In this document: positions 6,052 through 35,071 of the stretch, piece after piece
Layout of the letters: each line of letters opens with the position of its first letter
How positions within the stretch are numbered: position 1 is the first letter of the stretch
Virus record (IMG/VR): IMGVR_UViG_3300042309_001637
Span: 1 to 35,418 of that record
From: a virus
Strand: one strand, 5' to 3'
Length of the DNA: 35,418 nucleotides
Notes under the pieces: generated by a model
Seen by the model: only the letters and a program-made list of their open reading frames with translations
What the model was told of the DNA's origin: nothing
Database searches by the model: none
Translations under genes and position numbers: made by a program

Positions 6052-7566
6052 TTAGAAAATCATTGTCCATCTCTTTTTTCCGCAGTCCCATATTCTTACA
6101 AAACCATTTTTTACCGCCCATTCCTTTTCTGTAGTTCCTTTAGGACAGAGCGTATTAGATTTTTTCATGGACTGTTTTGATATTCTCATTGCTCTTTTTT
6201 TCAAACAAACATAACTGTAGTCTGGGGCAAGTTGCGTATCTAATGCAAATCCATTCTTATAGTACACATTTCCTTCTGACCATCTGTTGTCGCTCCAAGT
6301 AGTGATCTTGCGTATTTCATTTTTTAAACACCAATTTTTACACTCAACAAAAAGCCTACTTGCTCCTCCATTTATTCTTATTCCATTCTTGAAGCACAAT
6401 CTGTTTAAGATTATTTTATCTTTAATTCTATGGTGATTTCCTAAACTAACGCAACCTAAAAGTTCTTTTTCATAAAATATTCCAAATGAAATCTTGGTCC
6501 CATATGGTTTTCCTTGTATGTGATAATCTTCATAGAATTTGTTTGATTCTTTCTTGCTTATCTCTATTATTTTACATTTCCTAGCATGAAATTTATTCGA
6601 AAAAGTTCCAATGAAAGAGTTTAAATAGTTTTTGCATTGAAAGTTTCTATAAATCCACTCATCTTCAAATATTGTTATTAGCCTTATTCCTAGAGACTTG
6701 CAAATTTTGTATTTTTTCTCATGATACTTTGAGTCTCTTGGAGATGGAGATGTTTCATTGTGCCAATACAAACCACAATACTCTACAGCAACAGACAAAT
6801 CTTCATTGAAAATGTCAAGTTCTAATCTACCGATATGCTTTGATTTAAATTCTTTTCCGGAAATATCTTGTAAGAATTCTCTTACATCGCTTTGAGTTCT
6901 TCCATATTTGGTTTGTTTGCCTTCCTTTGAAGCAAGTATCTTCTCCATTACCTTGTCATTCTGGGAGGGGTACTCATGTCCGTATTTTTTTAAATTGGTT
7001 TTTCTTCTTTTCTCTTTCACAAAATTAGACATTGAAGAGTGTTCTGTTCCGTATTTTTTTAGATATGTCTCCTTAGATTTTTTCTTGTACTCTTCTGTCT
7101 TGGTGAAGTACGATCCGTAGCGCATCTCCATCGTCGACTTTGATTTTTCTCTTACCGCTTCAGAAGCAAATGGATGATCGCATCCATATTTCATCAACCA
7201 TGTCTTTTTGGTTTTGTCTGCCACGTCTTTTCCGTGCAAAGAACATGTATTTCCATACTTTTTTAGGTTAGTGCCAGACATTTTTTCCAAAATGGCTTTA
7301 CTCTTAGCAGGCACTAATACCCCATGGTTTTTGAATAGCGTATCTTGTTGTTTTTTTCTGATGTGTTCATTTTGATATACGTTAGCAACACCATACTTTT
7401 TTAAGTTGGATTCTTTTCTTTTGTCAGAAGCACACTTTTTTGATCCACAACTGTCTTTTTCTATTATTTTTCTTGACTTGAGCACATCGTATTTTATTCT
7501 AGAGAAAGCACATCCGCAGTAGTCGCACTTCAACTGAAATATCTTATTTTTATCATCAACTATCAT
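6052..7566 (-). CDS. Free-standing homing-endonuclease-like protein with KYG repeats and Vsr-like nuclease (504 aa)
   Basis: Four parts are visible. Residues about 14-45 hold a zinc-binding cluster (CDYCGCAF ... CGSKKC). Residues about 55-225 contain about eight copies of a ~25-residue unit ending K-K-Y-G, a DNA-reading repeat seen in phage mobile endonucleases. Around residues 240-315 is a Vsr/EDxHD-type nuclease: LELDIFNEDLSVAVEYCGLYWH, then KKYKICKSLGIRLITIFEDEW. The C-terminal part, including FGIFYEKELLGCVSLG and ITTWSDNRWSEGN, looks like a GNAT-type fold common in these proteins. Its start overlaps the helicase stop by 11 bases. The gene is visibly more AT-rich and lysine-rich than its neighbours, which fits recent arrival. 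It presumably cuts a related genome lacking it and spreads by repair. Confidence 0.85.
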   Translation of the reverse strand: MIVDDKNKIFQLKCDYCGCAFSRIKYDVLKSRKIIEKDSCGSKKCASDKRKESNLKKYGVANVYQNEHIRKKQQDTLFKNHGVLVPAKSKAILEKMSGTNLKKYGNTCSLHGKDVADKTKKTWLMKYGCDHPFASEAVREKSKSTMEMRYGSYFTKTEEYKKKSKETYLKKYGTEHSSMSNFVKEKRRKTNLKKYGHEYPSQNDKVMEKILASKEGKQTKYGRTQSDVREFLQDISGKEFKSKHIGRLELDIFNEDLSVAVEYCGLYWHNETSPSPRDSKYHEKKYKICKSLGIRLITIFEDEWIYRNFQCKNYLNSFIGTFSNKFHARKCKIIEISKKESNKFYEDYHIQGKPYGTKISFGIFYEKELLGCVSLGNHHRIKDKIILNRLCFKNGIRINGGASRLFVECKNWCLKNEIRKITTWSDNRWSEGNVYYKNGFALDTQLAPDYSYVCLKKRAMRISKQSMKKSNTLCPKGTTEKEWAVKNGFVRIWDCGKKRWTMIF

Positions 7567-8968
7567 TTTGTTCCTTTATTGTTACTTCATGACCTTCGGT
7601 CTTGAGTATTTTAACCCTTTTCTTGCTATGCTGTAGAAGATAATCATTGTTCTCAAACATAAAATCGTAATAGTTGAGAATGCTTTTATCCTCTGCGGTT
7701 CTCAAACCTCTTCCCACCCTCTGGATGATATGATGATCGGCTTGCCCCCCGGCAGCATTTATTACATTATGTACCATTATATTTATGCCCGCGTTGAAAA
7801 TTTGTTGGGTCGCTATTCCCACAATTTTTTCCTTGCTTGTCTTCAATTTGTCTATGACCAACTTTCTGGTCTCCAAGTCGTCCTTGCCTTGTACCCAAAG
7901 AGCACCAGGAATAAGAGACGCTAAACTGTCTCCGTGGGCTATTCTGTCGACTAGTATGAGCGTTCGTCCCTCAAGCTTATTGGTGAGATTGACGACTATC
8001 TCATGGAAGTGCCAGTTCTCGGCTATTCCTCTTGTGACGGCATCCATGTATATCTCGTACTTGAGCTCTGGCTCCCGTACAGGATAAAAAGTGCACTTGC
8101 TCTTCGCGAGCATTCCCCTTTCTTGAAGGTGGCTAGTAGTGAGCACTCCTCCCGCACTCTTAGACTTCAAGGCTGGGCCGAAGTAGCCTTTTACGAGCCA
8201 TTTCTGGCACAAGTCTTTTCCTCCAAACTTAAACGGGGTTGCGCTCACTGCCGCCCTCACTGCGCAACTCTTCATCTTGTTGAAGTACTTCTTCGGCTCC
8301 TTGCTCATGTTCTCGTGTATCTCGTCGACTACAAGTGCCTTAATTTTATCTAGGAGCGGCTCCATTTTGTGTAGGCTCTGCACAGTAGCACACGTGATCA
8401 CGCTTGGTTTATTGTATTTTCCATAGAGTCTTCCGACATTGGGAAATCCCCATTTTACGATCTCCTCGTAGTTCTGCTCTACTAGGCTCTTCTTGTTCGC
8501 AAGCACGAGAGTTGGGCAATTTTCGGGCAAGGCCTTGAGTATGGATATCATCACGGCCGTCTTACCCGCGGCGGTAGGCGCGCATATCACGCCCCTCTTG
8601 TGCTTGATTAAGGCGTTGGTCAAATCAACTTGGTAGTCATAAAGATTGAAACTGTCGCTAAGAAAATTCTCCCCGATCTCATTGTGTTTAAACTCAAAAA
8701 CTCCCCTTTCGTCCATCGTCTTGTACTCTTCCCCGATGTGAGCTAGAGCCGCCTTGACCTCGGGAAGCAAGCCAGTGAGAAACCTTCCGGTCTTCTTGCT
8801 GAAGAATTCCGTGTATCCATCCCATAGTTTCTGCTTGTAGAGTCTGCTGTGGAAGTAGCCCTTCTCTCTAAACCTCATGTTTTCATGAAGTACGTTCAAA
8901 ACCTCGGGCTTCTCACAATAGAGCCATGAATAGCAATTCTGAATTCTTAGTATCGTTTCCTTCATCAT
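7556..8968 (-). CDS. uvsW: UvsW-type SF2 DNA helicase (470 aa)
   Basis: T4 UvsW is a 3'-5' SF2 helicase that unwinds R-loops and branched DNA and switches replication from origin- to recombination-dependent mode. The visible motifs are Walker A APTAAGKT (residues 130-137), DEIH box (215-218), motif III SAT (242-244) and motif VI QRVGRGLRT near residue 422. The ~110-residue N-terminal domain before the helicase core matches the UvsW layout, and the length is close to T4 UvsW (about 500 aa). ATG at 8968 is followed by a second ATG; AAGG is upstream, with TACAAT just before it. It works with gp46/47 encoded further right. A homing endonuclease follows directly. Confidence 0.9.
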   Translation of the reverse strand: MMKETILRIQNCYSWLYCEKPEVLNVLHENMRFREKGYFHSRLYKQKLWDGYTEFFSKKTGRFLTGLLPEVKAALAHIGEEYKTMDERGVFEFKHNEIGENFLSDSFNLYDYQVDLTNALIKHKRGVICAPTAAGKTAVMISILKALPENCPTLVLANKKSLVEQNYEEIVKWGFPNVGRLYGKYNKPSVITCATVQSLHKMEPLLDKIKALVVDEIHENMSKEPKKYFNKMKSCAVRAAVSATPFKFGGKDLCQKWLVKGYFGPALKSKSAGGVLTTSHLQERGMLAKSKCTFYPVREPELKYEIYMDAVTRGIAENWHFHEIVVNLTNKLEGRTLILVDRIAHGDSLASLIPGALWVQGKDDLETRKLVIDKLKTSKEKIVGIATQQIFNAGINIMVHNVINAAGGQADHHIIQRVGRGLRTAEDKSILNYYDFMFENNDYLLQHSKKRVKILKTEGHEVTIKEQNDS

Positions 8969-22503: not shown

Positions 22504-23253
22504 TCAAAACACTTGGAGTTGCAAGTTTTCTGATATGTACGTGCTCTCGCCGAAATCAAGTTCAAACCAGACATCATAAATTCCGTAATCCATGTCCAGA
22601 TCCACAGTGTCAAGGAAAAAATATCCTTCGGCATCCCGTCGGTACTCAACTTGGCCTCCTGAGACCACCGTTCTTAAATCCTTTTCCGCCGGCACGCATT
22701 CGCCGCATTTCTTTTCTATGTGAATCTTAACCGGGCTCGCAACAGCCAGATTCATATAGTACCTCTGCAAATCGGACGCATTAGGCACGTTCGGCACGAC
22801 CTCCACAGTCAGCCAGCGTCGTTCCCCTTTTCTTATCCTGTTCGGTCTGAATCCGTACGAGAAGTCGTAAACTATTGGCATGTCCGAGGCATACCATAGA
22901 TCTGATATCACCTTGAATTCGTTCGTTACGGTCCCCGACTGGTTCTCGTTGAACTGAACATACCAGACGTCCAAGTAGTTCCCGATGGTATAAACTTGGT
23001 CCACCAAACCGATCGCCACCTTATAATGCCCGCCGAAAGAGTCTGGGACTATTTCTATATCCGTTGGCTCTATGGTTCCTATTAGCCTTCTACCCTCTGG
23101 ATTGTCTTGTGTGATGCAAGTATCATCCAGTTGGTATATCTCTACTTTGGCTACATTTTGGACGCTTTGGCGGTGATTAGAGTTGTAAGTGAACATTCTG
23201 AGGTTCAAAATGTCACCCACGACCGGATTTTGGTTTCTTTCCTTTAATGCCAT
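22504..23253 (-). CDS. Probable virion structural protein (249 aa)
   Basis: Begins MALKERNQNPVVGDILNLRM. Long beta-rich protein with no membrane segment and the tail DFGESTYISENLQLQVF; there is an isolated cysteine pair (KKCGEC). It starts three bases after the stop of the frameshift reading frame and follows the gp26-like gene, so it is in a late minus-strand operon with baseplate genes. It may be a tail or baseplate-associated protein; the family is not recognised. Confidence 0.6.
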   Translation of the reverse strand: MALKERNQNPVVGDILNLRMFTYNSNHRQSVQNVAKVEIYQLDDTCITQDNPEGRRLIGTIEPTDIEIVPDSFGGHYKVAIGLVDQVYTIGNYLDVWYVQFNENQSGTVTNEFKVISDLWYASDMPIVYDFSYGFRPNRIRKGERRWLTVEVVPNVPNASDLQRYYMNLAVASPVKIHIEKKCGECVPAEKDLRTVVSGGQVEYRRDAEGYFFLDTVDLDMDYGIYDVWFELDFGESTYISENLQLQVF

Positions 23254-23256
23254 GTA

Positions 23257-23492
23257 TTATCTCTTCGTTTTGGCCTTTCTTCGCGCGGCTTCCATTGCCT
23301 CGTTTTCCTTTTCCTTTTGCTGGATGAATCTGCTGATTATCCACTTTCTCTCATTGATGGGCAAAGACATGAAGTTCTCCCGGCTCTGGTGCATGTGATA
23401 GATGAAGAAAAACATCTCCTCCATCAAGTTGCTCCAAAGTTCTAGGCTTGAGTCCTCGATATCGTATTTTTCTTTCGCTTTGCCCGCGGGAA
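23257..23492 (-). CDS. Downstream -1 frame extension of the gp26-like gene (78 aa)
   Basis: Reading in the -1 frame from the slip site gives LPAGKAKEKYDIEDSSLELW and continues past a helical segment (LMEEMFFFIYHMHQSREN, FMSLPINERKWIISR) to a basic Lys/Arg/Ala-rich tail, ending at TAA 23257-23259. It reads like genuine protein: a helix of 'MSLPINER' type is common at the end of phage baseplate hub chaperone proteins. Fused to the upstream 359 residues it would give a 437-residue protein. An internal ATG could also make a separate 55-residue product. The next gene starts three bases after its stop. Confidence 0.6.
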
Positions 23493-24569
23493 GAAAAAAT
23501 TTGATTCAAGCGGAAGTTCTATCTCAAAGTCCCGCATTGTATATGGGTTGGTTATGTTTACCTTGGTATCAACGCCGAAGGGCGGCTCATTGACCACTGT
23601 CCTCAAATAAGCCACGTCTTGAATAGGCAACTTCTTCAATAGCGTCTGAATCTCAAGTTTATCCGCTAGGCCCTCTATCTCTTCTATGAGGTGCGCCGTA
23701 CGGAACAACAAGGTATCGTCTGCCTGTCCCGAAAGGTCAAAATTCTTCGCCCTTCTTTCTCTGTATTCTTGTATCAACTGCTCATCCTTGCCCACTGCCA
23801 ATCTGTATCGGAACCTGTATTCCGTTGTGGGCAATACGTCTTCAAGACTTTCGGGACCGAAATCATCCGTACAGTAGTCAACATATAGGTCGTTGAGGTT
23901 GATCGTCGTCGCAAATGTCTGATCAGATTCGGGATCCTTTATTTCCACATCATACTCTGGGGTGTATGATATGCCTCTAAGATAGATGAGCATATATGTT
24001 CTGTCTTGTGTGAGGAAATTGGACGAGTCGTAATTGTCCCTCATACACCTGTTGAAAATCATATTTATCGCTTGGCCCTTCTTGACGAAGCGAGGGGTCG
24101 CCAATATTTCTTCCTCTTCGCCCGTCATCGGCCTAAGATGGATGATTCCGTCCTTTGGTCCATTTTCGCCGTCATAGAACTTTCCCTTGGAAGGAAGTTC
24201 TATCGGCTCAAACACCATCGTTCCCTTGGTGCCGATTCCTGCGATCAATTCCTCCAGTTTGCCGCTTCCCGTGACCCTCATCTCGGACTTCTTACCCTGA
24301 GCAGGCTTCTGCCCGCCCCTTGTCTCTATCTTCTTTGACGCCACCGCTTGCTTGAAGGCCTCCGGAACCCTACCGCTGATCTTCACTCCGGCCTCCGCTG
24401 CCGGGTTTTCGAACTCTTTATTCACTTCTGCCGCTGCGTTCTGCCTCATCTGGGCCATACGAGCCAACTGCTCGGCAGCATTTTCAGCATCGCCGTGCTG
24501 TGCCTCATCTCCATCTATTTCCTCTTGGGAAATGCTTCTTTTCTGCGGTCTGAAAGTCTCGTCGGCCAT
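23442..24569 (-). CDS. gp26-like baseplate protein, zero-frame product (375 aa)
   Basis: The ATG at 24569 (MADETFRPQKRSISQEEID) has AAAGGAGAA upstream; earlier in-frame codons are not coding. Residues 1 to about 130 are polar and probably disordered. From about residue 135 (EPIELPSKGKFYDGENGPKD, then LRPMTGEEEEILATPRFV) to the end is a domain typical of T4-type baseplate hub gp26 proteins, including YMLIYLRGISYTPEYDVEIK and TTEYRFRYRLAVGKDEQL. The frame then ends in a short basic tail, FPRAKRKKNTISRTQA, which looks unrelated to the preceding domain and lies just past a slippery heptamer. Assignment to gp26 is by style. Confidence 0.6.
   Translation of the reverse strand: MADETFRPQKRSISQEEIDGDEAQHGDAENAAEQLARMAQMRQNAAAEVNKEFENPAAEAGVKISGRVPEAFKQAVASKKIETRGGQKPAQGKKSEMRVTGSGKLEELIAGIGTKGTMVFEPIELPSKGKFYDGENGPKDGIIHLRPMTGEEEEILATPRFVKKGQAINMIFNRCMRDNYDSSNFLTQDRTYMLIYLRGISYTPEYDVEIKDPESDQTFATTINLNDLYVDYCTDDFGPESLEDVLPTTEYRFRYRLAVGKDEQLIQEYRERRAKNFDLSGQADDTLLFRTAHLIEEIEGLADKLEIQTLLKKLPIQDVAYLRTVVNEPPFGVDTKVNITNPYTMRDFEIELPLESNFFFPRAKRKKNTISRTQA
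23493..23499 (-). promoter_or_regulatory. Slippery heptamer for -1 frameshift (T TTT TTC)
   Basis: On the minus strand the zero-frame codons AAT TTT TTC contain T-TTT-TTC, a classic X-XXY-YYZ slip site; A-AAT-TTT overlaps it. Slipping back one base joins the 375-aa frame, 16 codons before its stop, to the 78-codon downstream frame. A homopolymer sequencing error of one base is the alternative. Confidence 0.55.
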
Positions 24570-24614
24570 TTTTTCTCCTTTAGATTTTACGAGTTCGTAG
24601 TCTATTAGAGAGCG

Positions 24615-28197: not shown

Positions 28198-28770
28198 TCA
28201 CGCAAACCCAGCGCCACCGCCCGGATTTATATCTCCCGTGAACGATGAACCGCTGTCGGAACAATCTTTGGTGTACGCCCTGTCGTACCTCAAAGTCATC
28301 TCCACCGTAACGACATCTTGGTTACTCATGTCAAGATCTCCCCACTCTATGTTATTGGGCCATATATTGCTGTATACCCATTCTTCCATAACATCGCCGC
28401 ACCCGCTGTACATCTTGAGTCTTCCGGTCTTCTTGAAGGCCCCCGGCGCAGGTGCTCTCCAAGTTCCTTTGTCGTCGCACGGCTCGTAAATCTGTTTTAG
28501 CCACTGAAATATGGGATTCTTATTCCCCTTCAATTCGTAAAGGGTCAAGTTTATAGGCTTCCAGTCCGGCTTTCCGGGAAAGTATATCGTCTCGTTGAGG
28601 TGCTGGGCCTCGATTTCTTTAAAACTGAGACTAGGCCGCGCAGCCTTATCTGGAGGCAAGGCGCTAGTTCCGTCATCACAGATCTCGTCTATGAAGAAAA
28701 GCCATCGGAACTTTCTCATCAGACACAAGTCTTCGCCCCCAAGCCTCCCCAGCCCCATTCTTTGTTCCAT
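28198..28770 (-). CDS. Tail tube protein paralogue, gp19-like (190 aa)
   Basis: Begins MEQRMGLGRLGGEDLCLMRK and follows the T4 gp19 layout: RKFRWLFFID, ARPSLSFKEIEAQHLNETIY, then VVTVEMTLRYDRAYTKDC near the C-terminus. It shares words with the 222-aa paralogue directly upstream: MY(S/T)GCGD-x-MEEW/MERW. It is shorter and lacks the Gly-rich tail. A strong bidirectional terminator separates it from the paralogue, so it may be made at another level. T4 has one tube protein, so two suggest different tube segments or a minor variant. TTGGAGGATAGAG precedes the ATG. Confidence 0.85.
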   Translation of the reverse strand: MEQRMGLGRLGGEDLCLMRKFRWLFFIDEICDDGTSALPPDKAARPSLSFKEIEAQHLNETIYFPGKPDWKPINLTLYELKGNKNPIFQWLKQIYEPCDDKGTWRAPAPGAFKKTGRLKMYSGCGDVMEEWVYSNIWPNNIEWGDLDMSNQDVVTVEMTLRYDRAYTKDCSDSGSSFTGDINPGGGAGFA

Positions 28771-28782
28771 CTCTATCCTCCA

Positions 28783-28790
28783 ATATAAAT
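28783..28790 (+). promoter_or_regulatory. Exact TATAAATA late-promoter word, pointing at a terminator
   Basis: TATAAATA (28783-28790) equals the T4 late consensus on the plus strand, but the only thing downstream is the terminator at 28805. It may be chance in an AT-rich spacer, or a short attenuated transcript. Confidence 0.25.
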
Positions 28791-28804
28791 AGAGTCATCA
28801 AACG

Positions 28805-28834
28805 AAAAAGGCCAGCGTTTCCGCTGGCCTTTTT
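28805..28834. terminator. Strong bidirectional intrinsic terminator
   Basis: AAAAAGGCCAGCG, the 4-nt loop TTTC and CGCTGGCCTTTTT form a perfect 13-bp stem (8 G/C-rich pairs and 5 A-T), with T-runs in both orientations. It lies between the two tube paralogues and should stop minus-strand transcripts coming from the sheath operon. Confidence 0.9.
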
Positions 28835-28857
28835 GTTTGATTTCCTTTTTGTTAGTC

Positions 28858-29526
28858 TTAGCGGACGGCGTCGCCAGAGAAACCAACGCTCGGTAGCGAT
28901 GTGGTTGCACTGTCTCCCCCTGCACTCATGCCCAAGACGCCACCAGCGCTCGTGCTGCAAGGGCAGCACGTAGAGGTGGGATCCCTTCCGCACAAGTTCT
29001 TGTACGAGACATTCGCGTACCTTACGGTAACTTCTACCGTTGCCTCTTCCGAAGAAGAATAATCCAGTTCGCCAAAGTTGACGGCTTGGGGCCAGCAGTC
29101 ACCCAGAGTCCATCTCTCCATGGGATCTCCGCAGCCTGTGTACATAGTACAGATTCCAATTCCGGCGTAGCAACTCCTTCTCGAGTTCTGCTGGAGACCC
29201 AGCGGATCGGTGAAATTATAGACATCGGCGAGCCAGTCCCACAAGGCCATGTTGTCGTCGCCGCTCACATCATAATACGTGACGGTGATCGTTTCCCAAG
29301 TGCCCTTTCCGGGAATGTAGGTCTTTCCGTTGAGGAAGTTTATTTCTGTTTCCTCTATTGAGATGTTTGGACGAGCAGCCATTTTGACAAAGCTCGCCGG
29401 AACATCTGCCGACACCGTTGACGCGGCACCGGTGTTGTTCCTTCTGACCTCAAAAGTCCATCTAAACTTCCTCTTGTGGGTGACTTGATCTCCACCCAAC
29501 TTTCCCAAACCCATTTGAATCGCCAT
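28858..29526 (-). CDS. Tail tube protein, gp19-like (222 aa)
   Basis: Begins MAIQMGLGKLGGDQVTHKRK, then RKFRWTFEVRR, ARPNISIEETEINFLNGKTY and the late EEATVEVTVRYANVSYK, the usual tube layout. It would form the inner tube within the sheath. Unusually, it has ten cysteines, including GIGICTMYTGCGDPMERW and a C-terminal CGRDPTSTCCPC cluster; a Gly/Ser-rich tail follows. The paralogue downstream keeps the MYxGCGD word. GAGGAG lies upstream of the ATG. Expressed from the sheath operon just before the terminator at 28805. Confidence 0.9.
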   Translation of the reverse strand: MAIQMGLGKLGGDQVTHKRKFRWTFEVRRNNTGAASTVSADVPASFVKMAARPNISIEETEINFLNGKTYIPGKGTWETITVTYYDVSGDDNMALWDWLADVYNFTDPLGLQQNSRRSCYAGIGICTMYTGCGDPMERWTLGDCWPQAVNFGELDYSSSEEATVEVTVRYANVSYKNLCGRDPTSTCCPCSTSAGGVLGMSAGGDSATTSLPSVGFSGDAVR

Positions 29527-29556: not shown

Positions 29557-32283
29557 TCAGAAGGTGTTCGAACCGGCATCGAAACTTCCGGTTCTGTGGA
29601 TGCTGAACTCAAGGAACATGAACTCTACGGCCCTTGTCGGCTGAACGCCGATTCTGGCTCTGAATTCGTTCCTGTCAATCACGTCAGGCGTATTCAGTTC
29701 TGTGTCAGCCTTGATGATGAATGCCGTCAGACCTCTCGCTATCTGAACCTCGCGCAGAATTCTTGTGGCTATCTCGATGAACTTCTGGCGGAAGATGTCG
29801 TCGTGCGGTTCGAACAAAAGTGCCCTGGACGCAGATCTGATTCTCTTCTCTATCGCAAACATTAGCCTTCTCACGTTCACACGATCCAAAGCGGTCGGCT
29901 TGCGTTGCAAGGTCTTCTGGCCCCACACGACGAAGTCTTGGAAGTCCGCGTACTGGACGATCGGGTTGATGGCGTTCCTGTTGCCGTACATCAAATCCCT
30001 TTCCTCCAAGGTCGGTCTGCTGAACACGTCTGTGATTCCGGGCACCACGCCACGGTTCACGCCAGCCGGGGCGAACCACGGAGCCGCAAGGGCGTCGTTC
30101 CTGGCGTATACCGCCATGATTGAGCCCGAAGGCGGAACCCAAACGTCAACATTATTGAACGTGTCGCGAATCTTGACCCACGGCCAGTAGAGAGCCGCGA
30201 AGTCTGAGTCGAAACGAGTTGTGTTCAGCGGATGGGCGCCGTTCTGCCAGTGAATTATTTCCTTAACTGTAAGGCCGAATGGTGCGTCCACTATAGCCAT
30301 GCAATCCATTCTCATGTTCTGACACATGTCAATCATCGCCAGAACTACGCCCGTAGAGGTGTGTCCTGGAACAGCGATCAAATCTATGTCTATCTGCTCC
30401 GGCTCGCTCAAGGCGTAGATGCCGGTGTAGCCCACGAGGTTTCCGATGAGGAAGTAATCTTGGTCGTCCGGATCCGAGGGGATGCCGTCTGAGCCGCCAG
30501 CCAAGGAATAAGTTCCATCGAGCGGAGGCGCTGGGTTTCCTACGTTATCCACAGCCCTCACGTAGTCCGAAACCAAGCTCAAGAATGTCTCAACGTAGAA
30601 CCTGCTGGTCTCGTCCTTGGTCAAGTTGCCCCAAGATTCGACTTGCACGCCGTTGTTGTAGACCTCCATTATGAAGTTACCCTCGCGAACATTGTTTCTC
30701 ACGACAACCTGGGTTGCGTTACCATCAATGCCCGGCGAGTCCGCTGTGAGCGTCACAGAGACGTCGCCGAATCTGTTGGAATCGCCATTTACAACGCCGA
30801 AACTGGAAATTGCCGCCGCACCACTGACACCCCTCGGAGAAAATCCGGAAGCCGTTATGTACATTCCCTTGTTAGATCCATTGCTACCGACGACAGATGG
30901 ATTCGCAGGGTCCAGAAGCGGAGCGTCGAATCCAAGAAGCGTGAAGGTGGAACTTTCGTTCTTGACAATGAGCCTTGCGTCGTTGCCGGAGTGGAGCGTC
31001 CTTAGGGACACATAATTTCCGACGGCGACAGCCAAAAAACCTCCCGGCACGTCACCGTCTGAAATTCTTGAGTTGATCGCATTGACGACGTTGGCGACAG
31101 TCGCTGCACTATTGGTCGACAAACTCGATAGATCAATAACTTGAACAACATTATCCACAAGTACATTGTCGGTTCCGTCAAGTACAACTTGAAGGTCATA
31201 TTCGTCAAGCTTGGTGAAGTCAAACGTGGCAGCCGCGCTGCCCGTGAACTGCGCACGGGTCATGCCGCTACCCAATCCCGTCACTCCCCCAAATCCGTAC
31301 AAGGCATCTTGAACAGATACGAGTTCTAGCTGGGCCCTCGGACCAAATGAGAACGTTGTCCTCAATCCTATCCTTGATACGCCGTATGTGGAGGTATACT
31401 TGTAGTCCACCGAAATTCTGTTAACGCCCGCGGCGAGATTGCTCTGGTAGGTCAGCGTTATGGTTCCGCCCGGATTATCTATGGCGCCCGCTATGGCCTT
31501 GTTCGCCGGGGATGCCACGATGGTCTTGAACGAGAAAACTCCTTGTTCGTTAACCTTGAAAGTCTGAACCACCGTTCCGCCTATCACCACGCGTCCGGTC
31601 ACCGAACCCGCAACAAGGTCTCCGTTGCCCAAACTGAACGTCACTTGATTGTCGGTTTCTGTTGTGGTCTGCAACTCGGATTCTATTAGGCTGGTTTTCT
31701 CCATTGTTGAGAAGAACTCTATGCCGTCGACCGCCGGATCGAGCTGCATATTGAGGTCGTCAGCCAATTGGGAGGCTGTGTATCCACCGCTGTTGACTAG
31801 CGGATCGGGATGGTTTTCGTTAGAAAGGGCGACGAGAGTCTTCGAAGCAAGGACTCCATTGAGCCTCCATCTGAAGTACATGTCTTTGCTTAAATTGTAA
31901 GGCCCGGCCTCGCTTGAGACTATCATAACATCGCCACCGGCCGAAGGAAGTTCGACTTGGGCTGAACGAGCACGTTCCCAACTCACGGCGTCGGTATCGG
32001 CGACGCGAACCACATAAAGTTCCGTCGCGACGAGCAAATACTGCTGAGCCGCATAGATGAGGTAAGGATCGCCCGCCTCGGGATGAGGATAGCCGAACAC
32101 TGTGTTCAACTGTCTTGTGGATTGGATCACTGTCGGAATGTTAATCGGACCCTTGCTCGCAAAACCAACCAAACCAGCCCTGTGGAAGGTCTGATCCGGA
32201 GCAATGTAGCTCAAGTCTTTCTCGGTTATTCTTACCGACGGTGAAATTGTATTGGACGGCGGAAAGCCCTTTAGGATTGCCAT
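29557..32283 (-). CDS. 18: Tail sheath protein, gp18-like (908 aa)
   Basis: Forms the contractile outer sheath. The N-terminus SPSVRITEKDLSYIAPDQTF, then RAGLVGFASKGPINIPTVIQ is the classic sheath entry. The last ~200 residues, with FVVWGQKTLQRKPTALDRVN, RRLMFAIEKRIRSASRALLF and RPTRAVEF-like ends, make the conserved C-terminal domain. At 908 aa it is larger than T4 gp18 (659 aa); the extra length is a long beta-rich region (about residues 195-490, with TFKVNEQGVFSFKTI). GGGAG is upstream of the ATG. It follows a small gene and gp15, and precedes the tube genes. Confidence 0.95.
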   Translation of the reverse strand: MAILKGFPPSNTISPSVRITEKDLSYIAPDQTFHRAGLVGFASKGPINIPTVIQSTRQLNTVFGYPHPEAGDPYLIYAAQQYLLVATELYVVRVADTDAVSWERARSAQVELPSAGGDVMIVSSEAGPYNLSKDMYFRWRLNGVLASKTLVALSNENHPDPLVNSGGYTASQLADDLNMQLDPAVDGIEFFSTMEKTSLIESELQTTTETDNQVTFSLGNGDLVAGSVTGRVVIGGTVVQTFKVNEQGVFSFKTIVASPANKAIAGAIDNPGGTITLTYQSNLAAGVNRISVDYKYTSTYGVSRIGLRTTFSFGPRAQLELVSVQDALYGFGGVTGLGSGMTRAQFTGSAAATFDFTKLDEYDLQVVLDGTDNVLVDNVVQVIDLSSLSTNSAATVANVVNAINSRISDGDVPGGFLAVAVGNYVSLRTLHSGNDARLIVKNESSTFTLLGFDAPLLDPANPSVVGSNGSNKGMYITASGFSPRGVSGAAAISSFGVVNGDSNRFGDVSVTLTADSPGIDGNATQVVVRNNVREGNFIMEVYNNGVQVESWGNLTKDETSRFYVETFLSLVSDYVRAVDNVGNPAPPLDGTYSLAGGSDGIPSDPDDQDYFLIGNLVGYTGIYALSEPEQIDIDLIAVPGHTSTGVVLAMIDMCQNMRMDCMAIVDAPFGLTVKEIIHWQNGAHPLNTTRFDSDFAALYWPWVKIRDTFNNVDVWVPPSGSIMAVYARNDALAAPWFAPAGVNRGVVPGITDVFSRPTLEERDLMYGNRNAINPIVQYADFQDFVVWGQKTLQRKPTALDRVNVRRLMFAIEKRIRSASRALLFEPHDDIFRQKFIEIATRILREVQIARGLTAFIIKADTELNTPDVIDRNEFRARIGVQPTRAVEFMFLEFSIHRTGSFDAGSNTF

Positions 32284-34705: not shown

Positions 34706-34776
34706 GCGGGTGTAGTGTAGCAGTAACACGGAATACTTCCAATTTTCAATCACCGGAGCGTAACCGGTCACCCGCT
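34706..34776 (+). tRNA. tRNA-Gly (UCC), atypical elbow
   Basis: Acceptor GCGGGTG/CACCCGC is perfect. D-stem GTGT/ACAC; anticodon loop CTTCCAA with anticodon TCC at 34738-34740; stem pairs GAATA with TTTTC (one T-T mismatch). T-stem ACCGG/CCGGT. The D-loop is AGCAGTA, lacking G18-G19, and the T-loop is AGCGTAA, not TTCRANN, so the D-loop/T-loop contact of normal tRNAs cannot form. No encoded CCA. It could be a non-standard or degenerate tRNA. Confidence 0.75.
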
Positions 34777-34801
34777 CTTGATTTTGATCAAGGTATAACG
34801 A

Positions 34802-35071
34802 TCCGAGATAGTTAAACGGTATAACAGCAGACTTCAAAATCGGAGTGCCTAAAGGGAAACTTTTAGAGTAGAACCTCTCAAATTCGGTGAAGCCTTTAAA
34901 ATGGTAATACCGAGCCAAGCCCAAGCAATTGGGAAGGTGTAGAGACTTGATGGGAGGCACCTAAATCAAAAGATATGGTGAAGGTAAAGTCCAGACCACA
35001 AACAGTAATGGTAGTGAAAACTATAGTGGCAAGTGGATCTGCTTTTCTAGGTTCGAATCCTAGTCTCGGAA
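34802..35071 (+). tRNA. tRNA-Gln (UUG) split by a group I intron
   Basis: 5' exon 34802-34834 and 3' exon 35034-35071 join to a 71-nt cloverleaf: acceptor TCCGAGA/TCTCGGA, D-arm GTTAAACGGTATAAC, anticodon stem GCAGA/TCTGC, loop CTT|TGGA, T-arm CTAGG-TTCGAAT-CCTAG, discriminator A. The split lies between anticodon bases 34 and 35, so the anticodon (TTG) is only made on splicing. Without splicing the loop would not form. No encoded CCA. Confidence 0.88.
34835..35033 (+). ncRNA. Group I intron ribozyme (199 nt), no ORF
   Basis: Conserved core elements are in order: P/Q region GGTAATACCGAGCCAAGCCC (34903-34922), R region with AGAGACTTGATGGG (34941-34954) and S region AAAGTCC (34986-34992); GACTT (34944-34948) pairs with AAGTC (34987-34991) as P7. 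The 5' exon end ACTT pairs with GAGT inside the intron (P1), with U.G at the splice site, and the intron ends in G at 35033 as required. The core resembles the small tRNA-Leu introns of cyanobacteria and plastids. It encodes no endonuclease. Confidence 0.9.

Follow-up and report, generated by a model that had tools for sequence, protein, structure and literature searches.

A viral tail assembly chaperone gene that very probably uses a programmed -1 ribosomal frameshift to yield a short and a long product

On the minus strand of the IMG/VR virus record IMGVR_UViG_3300042309_001637 (positions 1 to 35,418, a stretch of 35,418 nucleotides that is referred to here as the window), a gene with a match to phage 'baseplate hub' proteins is overlapped at its 3' end by a second, protein-like frame. 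Such an arrangement raises the question whether one continuous gene has been split, two adjacent genes overlap, or a single gene is read in two frames. A preliminary description of the locus, made from the sequence alone, proposed a probable programmed -1 frameshift in a baseplate gene, as in tail assembly chaperones. The present analysis indicates that this is very probably a tail assembly chaperone (TAC) gene in which a programmed -1 ribosomal frameshift yields a short and a long TAC; the evidence for recoding, which comes from sequence comparison, is very strong, and the case for the TAC assignment is strong.

The zero frame opens with an ATG at 24569 and encodes 375 aa up to a TAG at 23442-23444. 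At the junction, the minus strand reads ...GAA TCA AAT TTT TTC TTC CCG CGG..., where AAT TTT TTC are codons 357-359 of the zero frame; TTC, codon 359, is followed by 16 more zero-frame codons. This places the heptamer T_TTT_TTC (23499-23493) in the codon phase that a -1 slip requires, and the -1 frame, starting from the re-read C at 23493 that is the last base of the heptamer, continues for 78 codons to a TAA at 23257-23259, so that the two parts together would make a 437-aa fusion; the ATG of the next gene (23253) lies 3 nt beyond this stop. The lengths of both frames, of the tail and of the fusion, the heptamer and the 3-base gap given in the preliminary description are all confirmed from the sequence. 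The features of the locus are the following.

24575..24580, minus strand: probable ribosome-binding site AAGGAG, 5 nt before the ATG (direct sequence reading)
23442..24569, minus strand: zero-frame ORF, 375 aa, PF12322 / phrog_150 (T4 gp26-like 'baseplate hub'), putative short tail assembly chaperone, TAC-N (phrog_150 5e-14; PF12322 1.5e-11; structure matches)
23493..23499, minus strand: in-phase T_TTT_TTC, candidate slippery heptamer (unchanged in 31 distinct relatives; zero synonymous change)
23442..23492, minus strand: zero-frame tail, 16 codons and TAG, overlapping the -1 frame (a tail of 11-16 codons and the stop are kept in close relatives)
23257..23493, minus strand: -1 extension, 78 codons and TAA, putative C-terminal part of the 437-aa fusion, TAC-NC (conservation, coding pattern)

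Taken alone, the heptamer is not improbable: it arises in 17% of synonymous recodings of the gene, and in-phase TTTTTT[CT] is present in three genes among the 7,667 codons of the window, the other two instances opening -1 frames of only 1 and 28 codons. The significance of the heptamer comes from its conservation, without exception, in 31 distinct related sequences. With the zero-frame protein as query, IMG/VR yielded 24 relatives (57-97% identical), and all 23 with a complete junction contain the in-phase site, a stop 11-16 codons further on and a -1 extension of 73-82 codons. Two additional scans and a scan of genome contigs extended the set down to ~43-48% identity, and all the added relatives have the split layout; the single one from the genome contigs is located in a contig of a Neisseriaceae MAG that is probably a binned phage contig. 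Beside the window, all 31 distinct sequences with a complete junction (about 43-97% identical) carry in-phase TTTTTTCTTCCC at the junction and likewise retain the nearby zero-frame stop and the -1 extension; no uninterrupted copy of the gene was found among them. The preliminary description had reasoned that uninterrupted relatives would indicate an error and a conserved slip site a programmed event, and the relatives came out on the latter side.

The pattern of substitutions points in the same direction. In a codon alignment of 20 distinct sequences, no synonymous differences were observed over AAT-TTT-TTC-CTT-CCC, compared to ~512 pair differences expected from the rest of the gene, and the nine-codon windows that cover the slip site are the lowest in the gene for synonymous change. 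Among the overlapping candidate heptamers, T_TTT_TTC is the sole element that is constant across the relatives; A_AAT_TTT was ruled out as the slip site by GAATTTT in three relatives (L010, L015 and L024) and by AGT or GGT before TTT TTC in three others (L064, L085 and L026). The invariant TTCCC that follows the heptamer is read as FP or LP, depending on the frame, and this dual coding may be enough to fix it. No conserved downstream stimulatory RNA structure was found (z from -1.1 to +0.6), and no conserved Shine-Dalgarno-like element was seen upstream by eye. Beyond the zero-frame stop, the -1 frame shows 0.16, 0.10 and 0.46 differences per pair at codon positions 1, 2 and 3, respectively, resembling the main coding region (0.17, 0.09 and 0.60), a pattern that shows this frame to evolve as protein; in the overlap, the values are 0.29, 0.18 and 0.29, as would be expected under constraint on both frames. 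The extension carries the motif FFFxYH...PINERKWxxxRF.

Three other explanations of the junction have to be weighed. The downstream frame could be a separate small gene with its own start or expressed by coupled reinitiation; it is annotated in this manner in several phages (for example, as a 46-aa-scale 'baseplate hub assembly catalyst' in S-RS29), and a conserved ATG is present near extension codon 24. However, conservation of the -1 frame begins at the slip site, the invariant residues S16, L19 and W20 precede this ATG, and most relatives have no start codon up to extension codon 20; a small protein with its own initiation is therefore insufficient by itself. The absence of synonymous change at the slip site itself and the fusion of the extension to the PF12322 domain in T4 gp51 also count against this explanation, which we consider very unlikely, even if separate initiation could add a minor product without replacing the fusion. 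Transcriptional slippage, whereby a base added on the T run of some mRNAs would produce the fusion with no ribosomal frameshifting, would fit a homopolymer site at which one added U gives the -1 frame, but what is conserved is T_TTT_TTC at a constant codon phase, a constraint that slippage by the polymerase does not need, and six T's are short for efficient polymerase slippage, making this route more doubtful still. Finally, the preliminary description held a single-base error in the T run to be the competing view. An error of this kind, made in sequencing or assembly, or else a recent frameshift mutation, would split one continuous gene, but this has a negligible probability despite the error-prone nature of homopolymers and the derivation of the window from one metagenomic contig: errors would have had to arise independently at one and the same base in all samples, and the relatives refute this view, with exactly six T's and the same split in 31 distinct sequences from many contigs, constraint on the zero-frame tail and the -1 extension alike, and the same split in isolate genomes of distant relatives.

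With the programmed -1 frameshift thus being the preferred reading, the identity of the product has to be considered. The 375-aa protein has a match to PF12322 (the gp26 family, T4 base plate protein; 44.9 bits against a curated cut-off of 24.5, 1.5e-11, residues 125-359) and phrog_150 'baseplate hub' (5.3e-14), with the first ~120 residues lying outside the family-model match. The -1 extension yields weak matches to DUF6760 (PF20546; 7e-4, 20 bits, below the cut-off of 27) and to phrog_20255 (5e-4); no DUF6760 match above the cut-off was detected in three related records and 14 control genomes, and the extensions of the relatives are below it as well. The predicted structure is modest (mean pLDDT 56.5) and, among predicted viral proteins, matches gp26-type 'baseplate hub' proteins. 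A search of solved structures by sequence produced no match, and a Foldseek comparison of the predicted model with the PDB gave nothing significant. Among PDB chains re-aligned by VIA-align, only 3klu (YqbN of B. subtilis; Z 6.5) and 2ob9 (the HK97 tail assembly chaperone; Z 5.1) reach a Z of at least 5 against this model of pLDDT 56.5, the next value being 2.8; both are far smaller and only about 9% identical, and Z values of 5-6.5, which can come from a common arrangement, are too low to prove homology by themselves. We take YqbN to be a phage-element protein of the XkdN-type TAC family.

The position of the gene is also informative. The interval between the tail tube and tape measure genes is the classic location of tail assembly chaperone genes, and the phages SP-15, immuto and LIS04 show the order sheath, tube (or a gene annotated in its place), PF12322 gene, in some cases a small ORF, and tape measure. 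In the window, the gene comes after those for the sheath stabiliser, the sheath and two tube-like proteins on the same strand, with other genes intervening; no tape measure gene adjoining the frameshifted gene was recognised in the window or in close relatives. The 'baseplate' label of the preliminary description stands as the legacy annotation of the gp26 family, whereas the gp26/gp51 pair of T4, the structure matches and the position in relatives point to a tail assembly chaperone itself and support the comparison with such chaperones made there.

Several other observations on the window can be recorded. Directly after the fusion gene, 22504-23253 (minus strand) encodes a 249-aa protein without any family match, and three relatives (L059, L060 and L061) have an ORF of nearly equal length at this place (249, 245 and 248 aa, respectively). 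Two adjoining genes at 28198-29526 (minus strand) match the tail tube family phrog_4542 and represent a duplicated tube protein. The tail sheath (29557-32283, minus strand) is unusually large, at 908 aa; two related contigs and the 595-kb phage LR756511 have a separate ORF (about 480-500 codons) that matches its residues about 174-297, which suggests that this segment is a shared inserted domain. At 6052-8968 (minus strand), ORFs for a DNA helicase (470 aa) and a homing endonuclease (504 aa, phrog_3339) share 11 bases at the end of the former; a mobile element has possibly split the helicase gene. A tRNA-Gly(tcc) gene (34706-34777, plus strand) has a group I intron (34825-35014, plus strand; Rfam RF00028, 68 bits) just downstream of it.

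Both gp26 and gp51 of T4 match PF12322 (8.8e-64 and 3.9e-52, respectively). In gp51, the match spans residues 1-201, with about 48 residues beyond it, and phrog_634 'baseplate hub assembly catalyst' matches residues 147-246 of gp51 as well as the -1 extension of cyanophage S-RS29; therefore, in T4 the short and the long form are the products of two genes, gp26 being the short and gp51 the long one. Direct profile comparisons that set close-family alignments against single T4 sequences were uninformative: the extension aligned with the expected segment of gp51, but with an E value of 0.027 and a probability of 1.8%, so that the link to T4 rests on the Pfam and PHROG models. Presumably, with the support of the PF12322 and phrog_634 matches, gp26/gp51 is the T4 short/long pair treated by Vladimirov and colleagues. 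As it is related in later papers, that study (Vladimirov, Gautam and Davidson 2022, Virology 566:9-15) named T4-like TACs; by these accounts, some T4-like phages have one short gene and one longer fusion gene with no frameshifting (PMC10885494), and poly-T slip signals are present in TAC genes of T4-like phages (PMC12846349). The occurrence of the short and long forms as two genes in T4 agrees with the study as so described. T4 and the window are alike in that the short forms belong to the same family and the long form consists of the short-form domain with a C-terminal extension; they differ in that the two T4 forms are encoded, without a frameshift, by separate genes, 26 and 51, that are divergently placed, whereas in the window both would come from one gene, and in that the T4 gp26 family model leaves the first ~120 residues of the window protein unmatched.

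Recoding of PF12322-type genes appears to extend well beyond the close relatives. A -1 extension at T_TTT_TTC or T_TTT_TTT is present in 14 sampled distant phages (121Q, GAP32, RaK2, PA5oct, Munch, Vibrio 2.275, Phosso, Atu_ph07, SCTP-2, XaC1, XacN1, RAS14, S-RS29 and LR756511). Seven others (SP-15, LIS04, GXN1, immuto, Mel-JY01, RM378 and LR756508; L028-L032, L047 and L048 in our set) have a +1/-2 extension, and their shift occurs at the corresponding point of the gene, close to a TTT TTT-like stretch, +1 and -2 being indistinguishable from sequence. No joined annotation of both parts was found among the annotated records examined, and the +1/-2 genes have no recoding annotation. We lean towards the view that the means of producing the long form of PF12322 chaperones has switched repeatedly at one position of the protein: this uncultivated lineage, a cyanophage and the majority of jumbo phages would use a -1 shift, phages of the SP-15, Flavobacterium and Rhodothermus types a +1 or -2 shift, and T4 a duplicated gene (gp26 and gp51), with annotated genomes largely mislabelling the products as a 'baseplate hub' and a small hypothetical gene.

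From the evolution of these sequences, we infer frameshifting at T_TTT_TTC and the ribosomal nature of the slippage. Most ribosomes would end at the zero-frame TAG and release the 375-aa short chaperone; a fraction would slip back one base at the heptamer, where the two Phe-tRNAs on TTT-TTC would re-pair with TTT-TTT, and then read 78 more codons to make the 437-aa long chaperone with an extra, presumably helical, C-terminal domain. By analogy with gpG/gpGT of phage lambda, the N-terminal part that both products have in common would coat the tape measure protein, and the C-terminal extension would recruit tail tube subunits. The lambda system and the TAC frameshift of long-tailed phages (Xu, Hendrix and Duda 2004; PMC5009743) similarly have one gene for a short and a frameshift-extended protein, with a slip near the 3' end and a position between tube and tape measure (seen in relatives of the window gene); the window site is T_TTT_TTC, and the likeness is one of layout. 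TACs of different phages use -1, -2 or +1 shifts (PMC5009743). The TACs of Vandenendeviridae and Andersonviridae, including that of phage Adele (PMC12846349), are myovirus TACs whose conserved -1 slip likewise occurs on a T run close to the 3' end, and the extension in Adele is annotated as a separate hypothetical gene; they too are likened to the window gene by layout, with the conserved motif GTTTTT as opposed to T_TTT_TTC.

The window gene is a previously unannotated case of a known TAC recoding mechanism and, by itself, an ordinary, well-supported instance. For jumbo and T4-like phages, the recurring annotation of a 'baseplate hub' followed by a tiny hypothetical protein is corrected to one recoded chaperone gene, and the two recoding directions together with a duplicated-gene form in one family make a natural series for the evolution of frameshift direction.
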